Positions 4,701 through 29,460 of a DNA stretch of 30,250 nucleotides are shown piece by piece. The notes under the pieces were generated by a model. It did no database searches. It was not told where the DNA came from and saw only the letters and a list, made by a program, of their open reading frames with translations. Each line of letters begins with the position of its first letter. Positions within the stretch are counted from its first letter, which is position 1. The DNA is from a virus: positions 1 to 30,250 of IMG/VR virus record IMGVR_UViG_3300044825_000555. One strand, given 5' to 3'. The position numbers and the translations under genes were made by a program.

Positions 4701-5278
4701 TTGTTGAAATAGTTTTTAAATGTTTTATTCCATTGTTCTCTTCGCTCTGCTATTCTTTGCTCTTTATTGTCCGTTTCTGGCTTGTTTGCTACCTGGTTGA
4801 TACATTCTATTAGCTTATCAAAATAACCGTCTATAACCGGTATTTCTTCGCTTACTTCATTTATTTGTCTATCCTTTTGTATCTTAAACTGCTCGTTTGC
4901 ATAATCGCACTCAGCTGCATAAGTATTTACCCATTTCATAAAAGCAATAGGGCTTAACTTTCCGTATATATCTCCAAAAGTGCCGGTTTTAGCTTTTACA
5001 TAAAATAGCTTCCATTGTTCAGCAGTTAGATTGGCATAGTTATTGCAAATAAGCTCAACAACATCTTGTTTTTGAGCGTTATTCCACTCACAACCTATGT
5101 AGTTTAAAAAGTTGCTTAATTGAGCAGCAACTCCGGAATAAATCTTTTCTACTCCTAATTCTTTTGATAATTGGACTAAAGTTTTTGTGTGGCTAAAATC
5201 AGCCGGTGCATGATTAACCGAAATACTTTGCTGTTTCTTCGTCAAGCTCAATTCTTTGTCCTTCTTGTTTTGTTCCAT
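4697..5278 (-). CDS. Hypothetical replication-cluster protein
   Basis: This 193-residue protein has a basic, disordered N-terminus followed by helices. The central part contains LFYVKAKTGTFGDIYGKLSPIAFMKWVNTYAAE, an arrangement I associate with DUF6633-type phage proteins found next to replication initiators. I cannot confirm that assignment. It could be a helicase loader or another initiation partner, by position only. The start overlaps the end of the initiator gene by 65 bases, an unusually long overlap. No internal Met gives a shorter plausible start, although an alternative GTG or TTG start is possible. Confidence 0.6.
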   Translation of the reverse strand: MEQNKKDKELSLTKKQQSISVNHAPADFSHTKTLVQLSKELGVEKIYSGVAAQLSNFLNYIGCEWNNAQKQDVVELICNNYANLTAEQWKLFYVKAKTGTFGDIYGKLSPIAFMKWVNTYAAECDYANEQFKIQKDRQINEVSEEIPVIDGYFDKLIECINQVANKPETDNKEQRIAERREQWNKTFKNYFNK

Positions 5279-6026
5279 AGTTGATAATTTTGTTGAATTG
5301 TGAATTTATATTTTTAAGTAAAAAGTTTTCTTTTAACCATTTGTCTTTTGAAGCATAATCTAAAACTTTATAAAAACTTGCTTTTATTGTTTCTGCTTTA
5401 GTTTCTAAATTCCTTTGGTTGCATAAAAATATGATTTTATTTTCTATTTCTTTAATCATCTTTCCATCTACTGCTTGGAATGTTGGTTTGAAGTTAAACA
5501 TAGATTGGTAAAAATCAAAATAAACCTCAACCATTAAATCATAGTTAGCAGATTTATCTGCAAATTCTATTTTACTTTTCTTTTCTTTAGTTTCCTTTAG
5601 TTTATTTTCCTTTACTTTACTTGCATTACCAACGCAATGCTCTTGCAATGCATTTGCATCTGCATTTGCATCTTTAACTCCTTGCCATCTCTTTTGAGCA
5701 GCTAATCGTGCGTTATTTGACTTTTCTAAATAAGGTTGTAAGTAATATACTTGTTTGATAGAAAAAAAGTTATTGCACTCATCTATTTGAAATAAATCAT
5801 ACTTTTTAAGTACTACCTCAACTTTAGCAAGTGAAGTTCCAAATTCATCAGCAAGTAGGTCAATATCCGAAATAGGATACCTAAAATCTTGTTGTTCTCT
5901 TAATACCTCAAGAAGCATAAAATAGATACCATAACCCTCTATTCCAAGCTCTTTTGTTACTCGTTTGATCTTCCTATCGTGTCTTGCATTAGCAAAGTGT
6001 GGGAAGTAAAATGCATCTTTTTTCAT
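5214..6026 (-). CDS. DUF4373 (Lin1244/Lin1753-like) replication initiator / replisome organizer
   Basis: This is a 270-residue protein. Residues 1-105 match the Lin1244/Lin1753-like N-terminal domain, with KDAFYFPHFANARHDRKIKR then GIEGYGIYFMLLEVLREQ. This is a winged-helix DNA-binding unit found in phage replisome organizers. A low-complexity linker (about 115-155, with DANADANA and many lysines) leads to a helical C-terminal domain of DnaD-like character. I infer origin binding and recruitment of the host helicase. The linker DNA contains a 12-bp tandem repeat, which may be part of the origin. The ATG lies just after a terminator-like hairpin and T-tract, so expression may be controlled by that leader. 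Confidence 0.8.
   Translation of the reverse strand: MKKDAFYFPHFANARHDRKIKRVTKELGIEGYGIYFMLLEVLREQQDFRYPISDIDLLADEFGTSLAKVEVVLKKYDLFQIDECNNFFSIKQVYYLQPYLEKSNNARLAAQKRWQGVKDANADANALQEHCVGNASKVKENKLKETKEKKSKIEFADKSANYDLMVEVYFDFYQSMFNFKPTFQAVDGKMIKEIENKIIFLCNQRNLETKAETIKASFYKVLDYASKDKWLKENFLLKNINSQFNKIINYGTKQEGQRIELDEETAKYFG
5649..5672. repeat. 12-bp tandem repeat (iteron-like), possible origin core
   Basis: TGCATTTGCATC occurs twice in immediate tandem inside the initiator gene. It is preceded by further TTGCA-containing matches (5630-5650) and by a pyrimidine-rich TTTAG/TTTAC-repeat stretch at about 5577-5630. Iterons beside a low-melting tract inside the initiator gene are the arrangement of lambda ori within gene O. 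The repeat also encodes DANADANA in the linker, so it could merely be protein low complexity. Confidence 0.45.
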
Positions 6027-6029
6027 AAA

Positions 6030-6061
6030 ATAAAAAACCCTTGTAGTAAGGAGTACAAGGG
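6030..6061 (-). terminator. Intrinsic-terminator-like hairpin just before the initiator gene
   Basis: On the minus strand an 8-bp perfect stem, CCCTTGTA with TACAAGGG, encloses the 8-base loop CTCCTTAC. It is followed by TTTTTTATTTT and then the ATG at 6026. A terminator so close to a start codon suggests attenuation or translational control, not the simple end of the upstream operon. The loop is perfectly complementary to the loop of the hairpin at 6085-6112. Confidence 0.6.
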
Positions 6062-6084
6062 CTGGTTTATAAAACCTAATAGAA

Positions 6085-6112
6085 AATATTTAACTCCTTA
6101 CTTTTAAATATT
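6085..6112 (-). promoter_or_regulatory. Leader hairpin whose loop matches the terminator loop
   Basis: On the minus strand a 9-bp A/T stem, AATATTTAA with TTAAATATT, encloses the loop AAGTAAGGAG. GTAAGGAG in this loop is the exact reverse complement of the downstream hairpin loop CTCCTTAC, and the match extends to 10 bp if closing bases are included. It could form a loop-loop kissing complex or an antiterminator helix. A further 5-bp hairpin (GGTTT/AAACC, 6064-6076) sits between the two. Confidence 0.5.
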
Positions 6113-6143
6113 CCCTTTTATATAAATAGTAGTTCTTTAGAAA

Positions 6144-6171
6144 TTACCGGCAGCTTTTACACCACCGGTAA
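6144..6171 (-). promoter_or_regulatory. Leader inverted repeat TTACCGG/CCGGTAA
   Basis: A perfect 7-bp inverted repeat with a 14-base spacer lies in the untranslated leader upstream of the initiator gene. It could be an additional RNA hairpin or a protein-binding site in the DNA. It has no T-tract, so I do not call it a terminator. Confidence 0.35.
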
Positions 6172-6187
6172 ATCAACTATGAACAAG

Positions 6188-6684: not shown

Positions 6685-7041
6685 TTATTTTAAGGTTAGT
6701 GAAGCTGGTTGTAAGATTAATTTATTAGGAATTGCATCGCCAAGATTATACCATTGACAGAATTTAGCGTCATCAAAATATTCAATGCCATCTTTAAAAT
6801 AGCTTGGTATTTCGTATACTCGTTTTATTATGGCTGCTTTAGGATCATAAGTAAACATGTGTATTTCTCTTATGCCATCGTTAAAAACGAAATCAATAAT
6901 GCTATCTGTATATTTTACAATCATGCCAGTTGCATAGCATTCACGATTATATCTTGTATTGTGTACTTTGCTTTTGACTAATCTGCCATCAACATAAACG
7001 TGCAAAGTGCCTACCGGAGGAGTTATTTTATAGTTACCCAT
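6685..7041 (-). CDS. Hypothetical phage protein
   Basis: This 118-residue protein appears mainly beta-stranded (VGTLHVYVDGRLV, SIIDFVFNDGIREIHMFTYD). It contains a YFDDAKFCQWYNLGD segment near residue 90. I do not recognise a family. Its start overlaps the end of the YqaJ exonuclease gene by eight bases, so it belongs to the recombination operon. Confidence 0.6.
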   Translation of the reverse strand: MGNYKITPPVGTLHVYVDGRLVKSKVHNTRYNRECYATGMIVKYTDSIIDFVFNDGIREIHMFTYDPKAAIIKRVYEIPSYFKDGIEYFDDAKFCQWYNLGDAIPNKLILQPASLTLK

Positions 7042-7672
7042 TGATTATATTTAAAATGTTATTTACATAGATTGTAGCAAGTTCTACCTTTTCAATTAGC
7101 TTCTCGCAGAAATCATTATCTCTATCAATATGCAGTATTTTAAGCATATTTATTCTCGGATCATAAGCAACCCAATTCGCCCAATTAGTGTTAGTGCATA
7201 CCATGTTAAACTGTACTTGAGCATAGTAATTCTTGTTATAAGCAAGTAAATCAGCACCAGAATTAAATAACAAGTAATCAATCATAGTTTCTCCGGTATA
7301 TGGACATTTAACCTCTAACACTCCTTGACCTTTGTCGCTTTCAATCAATCCGTCTGGACTGCCTCCGGACCTTTCGCCAAACTCAAAGAATTTAGGATTA
7401 GCACCACCCAAGTTTTCTACTTTATAACCAGTTTGAGCTTCATAAACCAAGATAGCTTCGTTCTCTAAAGATTTACCCCATTCTAAACTCGGTAGTGAGC
7501 CTAAAGATTTTACTTCGCCACTTAATATCTCGTGGATTTTTCTATGTATGTAGGTTTTAGCAGTTGCACCAAATACCTCATCTTTCTTTTTACTTTCAGT
7601 AAGTAAGTTTCCTATTTCGGAAGCAGTAAACTTTCCCAGCCTACTGCTCATCCAATTGTCTTGTTCAAACAT
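7034..7672 (-). CDS. YqaJ-family (lambda exonuclease-like) recombination nuclease
   Basis: This 212-residue protein has the PD-(D/E)XK motifs of the YqaJ/lambda Exo family. They are LEWGKSLENEAILVYE at 63-78, the catalytic Asp107 in GGSPDGLI, Glu120 and Lys122 in VLEVKCP, and the YYAQVQFNM motif in the C-terminal half. It would resect linear double-stranded DNA 5' to 3' and hand 3' single strands to an annealase. The adjacent upstream gene encodes an ERF annealase and overlaps by one base (TAATG), so the pair is a two-component recombinase like Red or RecET. Confidence 0.9.
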   Translation of the reverse strand: MFEQDNWMSSRLGKFTASEIGNLLTESKKKDEVFGATAKTYIHRKIHEILSGEVKSLGSLPSLEWGKSLENEAILVYEAQTGYKVENLGGANPKFFEFGERSGGSPDGLIESDKGQGVLEVKCPYTGETMIDYLLFNSGADLLAYNKNYYAQVQFNMVCTNTNWANWVAYDPRINMLKILHIDRDNDFCEKLIEKVELATIYVNNILNIING

Positions 7673-8211
7673 TATTTTAAAGATTTTTTGCGATTAGTAA
7701 ATAAAGTTTTCTCTGCATTACTCCAATCTTCTTTTGTAGAGTATAGCATTTGTAATTCTGTAATATCCTTACATTTAGCAAGTTTATTAACTAATTCAGC
7801 ATCAATACCTACCGGCTCATCTTTGCCATGAGTGTTAGTAGCATCTGCATCTTTAGTGTCATCAATAAGGAATAAACCATTTAAGGCATATTTACGAGCG
7901 TAAGAAGATGATGCTCCGAAACTTTGTGCAATATCCATTCCTCTTTTATTAGGATCAATACCGGCACATGCAGTTACTTTATATGAAGATGAAGTTTCTA
8001 AATCAATTAATAGTGCTTCAGCTTCTACATAAATAATACCACTAATTTCTTTTATTTCATCGGACAAAGTTAAAGTACATTCATGCTTAGCTAATAATGG
8101 CTTAACTGCTTCAAGAATATCCTCGCAGTTTCTGTACTTGTAATTACCAAAGTTATTAAATTGGTTTTTTGGGGCTTTCAGTTCAAACTGAATTTTTGAT
8201 AATTTGTTCAT
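7672..8211 (-). CDS. ERF-family single-strand annealing protein
   Basis: This 179-residue protein carries both ERF hallmarks: NQFNNFGNYKYRNCEDILEA at about residues 16-35 and AQSFGASSSYARKYALNGLF at 95-114, followed by DD. ERF proteins, typified by P22 Erf, anneal complementary single strands and circularise or concatenate phage genomes. It is encoded directly upstream of the YqaJ exonuclease. It has its own Bacteroidota-type promoter 39 bases ahead of the ATG, so it heads a transcription unit. Confidence 0.9.
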   Translation of the reverse strand: MNKLSKIQFELKAPKNQFNNFGNYKYRNCEDILEAVKPLLAKHECTLTLSDEIKEISGIIYVEAEALLIDLETSSSYKVTACAGIDPNKRGMDIAQSFGASSSYARKYALNGLFLIDDTKDADATNTHGKDEPVGIDAELVNKLAKCKDITELQMLYSTKEDWSNAEKTLFTNRKKSLK

Positions 8212-8287: not shown

Positions 8288-8635
8288 TTATAAAATAATA
8301 TCATCATAAAGGTCTTTTTGTGCTTCAATCTTCCTAATAGCGTTTAAAACAGTTGTATGATCTCGGTTGAATATAGCCCCTACTTCAGTCATTGTGAAGC
8401 CGGTTTGATATAGTTTATACATTAAAACCATTCTCGGCAATACTACTGTTCTTCTTCTGCTTCCACTCATCATATCTTCGTAGCTTATTTTATAGTCCTT
8501 ACAAACTCCCACGATTGCAGTTTTTATAACCTGGTCCTTGTTAGCCTTTAGATTGTTTCTTAATTCTTTAATTTGAGCTTTAAGTTTAATTAACTCGTGG
8601 TTCTTCAATTTTAACTCCCTCGGTGTTGTCTGCAT
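8288..8635 (-). CDS. Stand-alone DnaA domain IV (DnaA-box-binding) protein
   Basis: This is a 115-residue protein. Residues 8-35 are a likely coiled coil. Residues 60-105 match DnaA domain IV, with a basic SRRRTVVLPRMVLMYKL helix, MTEVGAIFNRDHTTV and the trailing AIRKIE. The RDHTTV DnaA signature is at 91-96. The AAA+ ATPase domain is absent. The protein should bind DnaA-box-like DNA but cannot itself melt an origin, so it may act as a regulator, a competitor of host DnaA or an origin marker. Its start overlaps the preceding 65-residue gene by 50 bases. Confidence 0.85.
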   Translation of the reverse strand: MQTTPRELKLKNHELIKLKAQIKELRNNLKANKDQVIKTAIVGVCKDYKISYEDMMSGSRRRTVVLPRMVLMYKLYQTGFTMTEVGAIFNRDHTTVLNAIRKIEAQKDLYDDIIL

Positions 8636-28314: not shown

Positions 28315-29460
28315 TTACGAAAAGGAGTATTGCCCAAACCCACCTTGTAGGTAAGTAAGTGCCACATATCTTAAAGCATCAATAGCATGGTCATTCATTC
28401 CTATAACTTCATTAAGCATTTCGCCATTCTTTTGCTTCCACTTGTAACTTGCTAACTCTCTTAATAGATTAGTACTATCGTTTGTAATATTCATTTTATA
28501 GCCCTTGAGTAAGTTTAAACCAGCTCTTACCGAGTCAGCTCCTTTCTTTACCCCACTTGCATTGATACCGCAATTAAATAACTCTTGAATAGATTTAGGC
28601 TCGGAGCTATCTGCTATAACCGAAGTAATGCCTTGCTCTTTTAACTTATCTGCTAACATAGGATTAGTTAATTGCCTTTCATAAACAAATTCCTTAATAT
28701 AAAGCTCCCCATTATACCTCCAAACCCCAACACAAGCCGAAGGATCATTTGTAAAACCAAAGTCCAAGCCATAACCTACTAAAGTTGCATCTATTGGTAT
28801 TTCGCTGCACCTTGTATAATTTCTAAACACTAACCCCTCAATCTTGCCGGTCATTCCTCGTGCATATACTTTCCATAGCTCAAGATCAACCTCTTTTAGA
28901 TTTTCAATTTTCTCTACTAACTTCTTGTCTATAAATGGATTGTGTCTATAATCGGATATTAATAATTTAACATTTGGTTGCCCTAATAACTTCTCATGCA
29001 CCCAAAATGCCTCATTTGGATTATAGTCAATATAGGTTTTGACTTTAGTACGCATATAAAGCTCGTTAAATACATCATAACGCACCCCATTAGCCTCATT
29101 GATAAATAAGTAGTCCCTTTTACCATTCTTGGCATCTTGAGCATCATCATAGCTTTTAAACTCTATTATGCTTCCAGATTGAAAGGTAAATATTCTATCC
29201 GACTTGTTATATTCCTTGACTAATTGCTTTAGTTCCTCACTTGAGCTCCAAATAGTAATGGCATCTCTTAACGCTCCGGCTTTTAAGTTGGGTATATCTT
29301 GACCGGCTACAGTTATAACCAAATTAGGCTGACTTACTGCAAAAGTAAATAGCACCTGGAGAATAGAGTATGTTTTACCAGAAGAAGTCCCCCCTTGATT
29401 AACTACAATATCCTCTTTTGCATCTAAATTAGCTTTATAAAGTACTCCGGTAGTAAACAT
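28315..29460 (-). CDS. terL: Terminase large subunit
   Basis: This is a 381-residue protein. The ATPase half has Walker A GGTSSGKT at 23-30, Walker B YLFINE at 117-122 and the coupling-type YIDYNPNEAFWVHE at 143-156. The nuclease half has Asp233 in GLDFGFTNDP, Asp284 in VIADSSEP and the terminal GMNDHAIDALRY (Asp357/Asp361). This matches the Terminase_3 / PBSX-type family. It translocates DNA into the procapsid and cuts it into genome units. Its ATG overlaps the stop of the upstream 56-residue gene (TAATG). Confidence 0.95.
   Translation of the reverse strand: MFTTGVLYKANLDAKEDIVVNQGGTSSGKTYSILQVLFTFAVSQPNLVITVAGQDIPNLKAGALRDAITIWSSSEELKQLVKEYNKSDRIFTFQSGSIIEFKSYDDAQDAKNGKRDYLFINEANGVRYDVFNELYMRTKVKTYIDYNPNEAFWVHEKLLGQPNVKLLISDYRHNPFIDKKLVEKIENLKEVDLELWKVYARGMTGKIEGLVFRNYTRCSEIPIDATLVGYGLDFGFTNDPSACVGVWRYNGELYIKEFVYERQLTNPMLADKLKEQGITSVIADSSEPKSIQELFNCGINASGVKKGADSVRAGLNLLKGYKMNITNDSTNLLRELASYKWKQKNGEMLNEVIGMNDHAIDALRYVALTYLQGGFGQYSFS

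Follow-up and report, generated by a model that had tools for sequence, protein, structure and literature searches.

The analysed DNA stretch (the window) comprises 30,250 nucleotides and encodes, on the minus strand (5214-6026), a protein of 270 aa with a Lin1244_N domain (Pfam PF14297, E 1.9e-12). The gene also matches phrog_2562, replication initiation protein (E 1.1e-14), and both matches support its earlier assignment, from the sequence alone, as a replication initiator. Neither an integrase nor a lysogeny repressor was recognised among the window proteins scanned.

Iteron-like repeats GATGCAAATGCAGATGCAAATGCATTGCAAGAGCATTGC (peptide DANADANALQEHC) were detected inside the initiator gene at about 5600-5670 on the minus strand. 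The initiator genes of relatives retain GATGCAAATGCAATGCAAATGCATAGCAAATGCAATGC with a strong bias among synonymous codons: GCA accounts for 92 of 110 Ala codons there and for 61 of 131 in the rest of the gene, AAT for 76 of 78 and 62 of 92, respectively. The codon skew at this retained motif suggests that a replication origin is located within the initiator gene, as in lambda O. Furthermore, a small protein encoded at 8288-8635 on the minus strand corresponds to the C-terminal DNA-binding domain of DnaA alone (Bac_DnaA_C, E 8e-18). Its gene lies near those encoding ERF (7672-8211) and YqaJ (7034-7672), and the protein may bind DnaA boxes of the phage or the host. DnaA-like genes are also present in the replication regions of the phages P12002L and phi10:1.

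Leader element of the initiator gene

The 5' region of the initiator gene contains a leader RNA with two hairpins whose loops could form a kissing contact. It is read from the minus strand, from 6195 down to 6027, and has the following features:

6195-6188, minus strand: -7 box of a Bacteroidota-type promoter, TATATTTG, assigned by sequence
6171-6144, minus strand: hairpin C, an extra 5' hairpin with the stem UUACCGG/CCGGUAA (predicted fold)
6115-6082, minus strand: hairpin B, the 5' kissing hairpin (H1), with a 12-bp stem (predicted fold)
6103-6094, minus strand: loop of hairpin B, AAGUAAGGAG
6102-6093, minus strand: L1, AGUAAGGAGU, the complement of L2, including a GUNR motif (GUAA)
6076-6064, minus strand: small linker hairpin GGUUU-UAU-AAACC (predicted fold)
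6063-6036, minus strand: hairpin A (H3), the 10-bp stem of a putative intrinsic terminator (predicted fold)
6054-6045, minus strand: L2, ACUCCUUACU, in the loop of the terminator hairpin, the complement of L1
6053-6046, minus strand: loop of hairpin A, CUCCUUAC
6037-6032, minus strand: U-tract (six U) of the putative terminator
6026-6024, minus strand: start codon (ATG) of the initiator gene

The match between the loops is perfect over 8 bp, or 10 Watson-Crick bp with the closing bases (L1 6102-6093 with L2 6054-6045), and spans 48 nt from start to start. In the minimum free energy fold hairpins A and B are both formed and both loops are open (z -2.6); the fold of the whole leader has a z of -3.3. 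The sequences GTAAGGAG and CTCCTTAC occur once each in the window. A strict scanner, which requires L1 in a hairpin and, at a distance of 30-75 nt, L2 within a hairpin with a U-tract, matched only the leader element on both strands of the 30 kb window, shuffled windows giving 0.2 matches each.

Transcription presumably starts at about 6185-6180, 3' of the -7 box. This box is located 93 nt 5' of L1 because hairpin C, which is confined to the window's own close relatives (L002-L012), intervenes. The linker hairpin resembles GGGUUAAAAAACC of the type A relatives, and a gap of 5 nt separates the U-tract from the ATG. The sequence-only reading had described two complementary hairpin loops and a hairpin A with a terminator T-tract just ahead of the ATG. 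Both features were recovered on the minus strand, hairpin A and its U-tract resembling an intrinsic terminator. The proposed bounds of 6030-6112 hold approximately for the hairpins themselves (about 6036-6115) and are too narrow for the likely, still putative transcript (about 6027-6185).

Conservation of the element in related and cultured phages

Protein searches of IMG/VR delivered several hundred loci, among which the same contigs often recur as overlapping copies. Close relatives retain the window leader, some of them with a C to U change in L2 that preserves a G-U pair. Distant relatives have an entirely different leader sequence in the same layout: a -7 box (TAnnTTTG), a 5' hairpin, a linker, an intrinsic-terminator hairpin with the complement of L1, a U-tract and the start codon. 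Their loops (L1/L2) include:

L015: GUCGGAU/AUCCGAC
L018: GUCGCAU/AUGCGAC
L014: AUGCGAC/GUCGCAU, the reverse assignment of L018
L023: GUAGUGUG/CACACUAC
L125: CUCACUAC/GUAGUGAG
L139: CUCUCGAC/GUCGAGAG
L013: CUACGAA/UUCGUAG
L060: GUAGCAG/CUGCUAC

The purine-rich strand is found in either hairpin, and L223 carries CUCCUUAC in its 5' loop. In three loci (L036, L041, L044) L2 is located in an internal loop of the terminator instead of its apex, where the automatic scan did not count it. The motif GUNR starts L1 or L2 in 22 of 23 distinct loop pairs across all types, these pairs being not all independent and their ends having been read by hand. Loops of antisense RNAs carry the U-turn motif YUNR, which the GUNR loop ends recall, but with G in place of Y. 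Large internal loops and conserved linkers occur within types A, B and C. Short reading frames noticed by eye in some type B members were rejected as a leader peptide, being inconsistent across members.

For a statistical evaluation 109 unique leaders were grouped into 61 clusters and searched for a hairpin loop able to form 7 or more Watson-Crick bp with another hairpin close to the ATG, with dinucleotide shuffles as background. Such a pair was detected in 40 of the 61 clusters (4.7 expected). After removal of three off-position chance matches (L126, L192, L198) and of a different pair in L044, 36 clusters pair in a consistent position, with a span between L1 and L2 of 50.4 nt on average (sd 3.1, range 44-56). 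A -7 box is present no more than 40 nt 5' of L1 in 32 of these 36 clusters, compared with 4.8 expected from shuffles. Boxes on the opposite strand are at background level (2 of 36 versus 2.1 expected), and an antisense RNA from that strand was rejected on this ground. This anatomically constrained scan and the pattern scan described below replaced an initial, less stringent loop scan of 200 nt because the shuffle background of the latter was high.

The kissing helix is 95% paired in the type A alignment (34 sequences), with 3 doubly changed pairs, and 100% paired in the type B alignment (10 sequences), with 5 of 8 pairs doubly changed. None of 500 shuffles and no slid register approached these values, so that the covariation search in related phages proposed together with the sequence-only reading did reveal compensatory double changes. 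The type B pair L138/L171 differs almost solely in the loops.

In an independent scan IMG/VR was searched for terminator hairpins with CTNNNAC in the loop, a pattern that is silent about L1, and at least 120 matches were obtained. Among the matches listed, 82 of 87 unique RNAs possess the exact L1 complement about 50-60 nt upstream; the other five comprise three representatives of one unrelated marine element, one other sequence and one RNA cut by the contig end. The same listed matches contain six loop variants (GUAGGAG, GUGAGAG, GUGGUAG, GUCGGAG, GUGAUAG, GUCAGAG; GU-N-R-N-AG), and no RNA carries the complement of a variant other than its own (0 of 410 mismatched combinations). In 79 of 83 listed type A cases the first ATG follows the last of the six T at a distance of 8-14 nt. 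A different conserved terminator (a CGGATGTTAATCCG hairpin and AAGCCAGTCGGCTAACACCGACTGGCTTTTTT) without a kissing loop was observed in the marine contigs L303, L304 and L332.

Diversifying selection on the loops was considered and rejected, as across 81 type A RNAs the loops evolve no faster than the rest. Free loop positions change about as fast as stems in this test, in which the loop rate is biased downwards because the search pattern fixed four of the seven L2 bases.

Taken together, the comparison of relatives demonstrates selection on the loop-loop complementarity, and the covariation and the pattern scan both argue that the loop match is functional. A covariance model of type A detects the window (E 0.0014) as well as L013 (6e-4) and L023 (0.037), none of which was in the training set, although these E-values are rough. 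Rfam 15 contains no family at the gathering threshold and nothing near it, the best sub-threshold match being the trpB ncRNA motif with 26.2 bits versus 59. In 396 cellular Bacteroidota genomes the model found only two marginal matches (L413, L414), which by eye are plain terminators, and a limited literature search yielded no description of a kissing-loop leader. Since many relatives keep the loop fit while the loop letters change, the leader RNA is very probably a real, previously undescribed control of early phage genes.

The first or second gene after the RNA encodes one of at least four unlike initiator classes: Lin1244_N proteins, LHDSNSF proteins with weak Lin1244_N and O-like matches, DnaD-like loaders or replisome organisers, and HTH_36 replication proteins. 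Among the matches listed the same loop variants accompany different initiators, so that RNA, loops and protein appear to be exchanged as modules. In some loci the RNA and the initiator are separated by cargo (an HNH gene, a methyltransferase gene or a tiny ORF). About one third of the Lin1244_N leaders have no such RNA element adjacent to the gene, and in many of these it was found further upstream beyond a cargo gene. In six loci (L198, L305, L361, L343, L377, L387) the cargo is inserted exactly between RNA and initiator, the inserted types being an HNH endonuclease, a methyltransferase-like gene and an ORF for a predicted membrane protein of 56 aa (MKNSNNLSFIEILTLILITLKLTNQI).

Cultured phages of Flavobacterium, Cellulophaga, Polaribacter, Tenacibaculum and Bacteroides carry the element as well:

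Tenacibaculum phage JQ: L1 35967-35976 and L2 36025-36034, followed by a 78-aa ORF and a DnaD-like gene
Polaribacter phages P12002L/S: before an O-like replication gene
Flavobacterium phage 11b: element present
Cellulophaga phages phi10:1/phi19:1: followed by gp024 and a primosomal-protein-like gene
Flavobacterium phages of the Lillamyvirus/Muminvirus/Hattifnattvirus group: element present

In JQ, phi10:1 and the Lillamyvirus/Muminvirus phages the gap between U-tract and ATG is longer (about 40-50 nt). The loops are GUGAGACG/CGUCUCAC in the lillamy group (stinky/lillamy) and GUGAGAAG/CUUCUCAC in morran9-1; these phages are congeneric, share the same host strain and are one compensatory loop pair apart. 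The lillamy group and morran9-1 are virulent (PMC7077304).

A similar element in Bacteroides phage B40-8 precedes an anti-repressor/Rha gene rather than an initiator. Phage BF702P1 retains the B40-8 loops, and BF766P1 breaks one of the seven pairs. The second loop of the B40-8 element (FJ008913, L426, about 28411-28473), UUUGGCGGC, includes UUGGCG; a reference listed in PMC10724649 names this loop motif for the Inc RNA target of plasmid ColIb-P9.

Apart from a chance match in a coding region of P12024S, no element was found in this phage or in 6H, nor in the initiator leaders of Flavobacterium phage 1/32, Parabacteroides phage PDS1, Porphyromonas phage 005b and Bacteroides phage VA7. About two chance matches are expected over the cultured genomes scanned (0.2 per 30 kb), in agreement with two coding-region matches that lack a promoter box (P12024S; minus strand of 11b). 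A DNA-level similarity search with the type A RNA revealed no cultured relative.

Presumed attenuation and alternative readings

The leader RNA probably belongs to the early replication operon of the phage and acts there as a transcription attenuator, most likely one that would be set in cis by the loop-loop pairing. RNA polymerase would start just upstream of the 5' hairpin displaying L1, in most relatives directly at it, and about 50 nt later the intrinsic-terminator hairpin would form with L2 as its loop or internal loop. The initiator gene would be reached solely by polymerases passing the terminator, because there is no room for a promoter before the start codon in the window and in type A, and the operon would have to be read through the U-tract.

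Pairing of L1 with L2 is supported by the covariation and would most simply take place within one molecule, as a kissing complex or pseudoknot. L1 would catch L2 on its exit from the polymerase, at a time when the terminator still lacks part of its 3' arm. Kissing may thereby hinder termination and allow expression of the operon, while an L1 or L2 occupied by leaders of other genome copies or by a protein would favour termination. In this way the attenuator would fix the timing and amount of initiator made. Antitermination is preferred here on kinetic grounds: L2 would emerge from the polymerase immediately ahead of the terminator's 3' arm, and rapid pairing of the loops would be of use chiefly where timing counts. 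Kissing could equally stabilise termination, as on paper the terminator stem can coexist with the kissing complex. The transcript as drawn with its start site, its termination, the read-through and the lowering of termination by kissing are inferred from the sequence. Taking into account the functional loop match, the terminator-like hairpin A and the initiator gene, a kissing/terminator leader that controls initiator synthesis, as anticipated in the sequence-only reading, is the best reading of the locus.

A considerably less probable scenario is that the leaders sense each other in trans. Terminated leaders of about 105 nt would build up with the genome copies, and their L2 would pair with nascent L1, or the reverse, and cause termination. 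Copy-number control, or exclusion of co-infecting phages whose loops are identical, would then be achieved without a separate antisense gene, which we regard as doubtful to the same degree. Among the matches listed, the loop pairs represent a limited set of specificity types common to unlike initiators; this, the resemblance of the GUNR loop ends to antisense-RNA U-turns, the lack of antisense -7 box enrichment and the single compensatory change between stinky/lillamy and morran on one host strain are consistent with such a sensor. However, pairing in cis should out-compete pairing in trans, the similar rates of loops and stems give no sign of diversifying selection, and lysogenic immunity is inapplicable to the Baltic phages because they are virulent (PMC7077304). 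It is only tentatively considered that a single self-complementary attenuator lets a phage count its own genomes, the loop types being exclusion groups across Bacteroidota phages. If true, terminated leaders with free L1 or L2 would shut off initiator synthesis within the same loop type.

It seems unlikely that the leader binds a protein or ligand, in the manner of a riboswitch or by autoregulation, with the kissing contact serving only as scaffold while termination is decided by the initiator or by a small molecule. Kissing scaffolds do occur in known riboswitches, and the large internal loops and conserved linkers of types A, B and C would fit such a function. Nevertheless, outside the base pairs no residues are evidently common to all types, no Rfam family matches, and binding by the own protein product is improbable since one RNA type is found ahead of four or more unlike initiators.

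Control of translation by a pseudoknot that opens or closes the ribosome site, as in the IncI-alpha/IncB repZ plasmids, would explain the same topology of two pairing loops ahead of a replication initiator. Here it appears quite improbable, as the start codon lies outside the structure in a U-rich single-stranded stretch, no Shine-Dalgarno sequence is located near it and the next gene after the RNA is often cargo. Even less credible is an independent small RNA gene merely sitting ahead of the initiator: it would account for the element's own promoter box and terminator, but not for a U-tract very near the start codon at a spacing that is constant in type A, nor does a further promoter fit between the two. 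Chance complementarity, or mimicry of the 16S anti-Shine-Dalgarno end as proposed earlier from the resemblance of CUCCUUAC to CCUCCUU, can practically be dismissed in view of the covariation and the ratio of 82/87 to 0/410 among the matches listed, all the more as relatives conserve the complementarity and not the anti-Shine-Dalgarno letters, their loops varying and swapping hairpins.

The timing of replication onset is little known beyond a few model phages, and very little for Bacteroidota phages. The leader is a widespread structured RNA, absent from Rfam and rightly placed to time this step, with loop pairs that co-change and are common to non-homologous initiators. Stinky/lillamy and morran offer a natural pair of virulent phages on one laboratory-grown host, which makes action in cis or trans directly testable.

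Comparison with known systems

In plasmids pT181 and pIP501 an antisense RNA drives termination ahead of repC and repR, respectively (PMC4878617). The phage leader shares with them its position in the initiator 5' leader, a 5' hairpin with a sensing loop, an intrinsic terminator before the gene and a kissing contact. There, however, a separate RNA from the opposite strand kisses and the antiterminator pairs with a terminator arm, whereas the phage leader carries both loops in one RNA, uses the terminator loop as L2 and shows no enriched antisense promoter.

In leaders of the repZ type two hairpins with complementary loops form a pseudoknot ahead of the initiator, and the phage leader likewise possesses two initiator-leader hairpins with mutually pairing loops. 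The leaders of IncI-alpha, IncB and IncL/M repZ are accompanied by RNAI/Inc RNA, the loop sequence setting the specificity (PMC10724649). The repZ system regulates translation by means of a leader peptide and an antisense RNA, and its second loop is not in a terminator hairpin; unlike in repZ, the phage start codon is outside the structure, downstream of the U-tract, and the second hairpin does not cover the ribosome site.

Complementary segments of an untranslated leader also control premature termination before the replication genes in the CI RNA immunity of satellite phage P4 (PMC4825925), an arrangement that the phage leader resembles. The P4 CI RNA is a processed trans factor with the targets seqA and seqC in lysogeny, whereas at least some carriers of the phage leader are virulent and the layout is different. 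ColE1 RNA I and RNA II likewise form loop-loop helices, of 7 bp, but these join sense and antisense RNA of a primer and do not constitute an mRNA attenuator.

The phage leader is thus partly like pT181, repZ and the P4 CI RNA and is a member of none of these systems, because it has no antisense gene, its second loop is inside the terminator and its start codon lies outside the structure.
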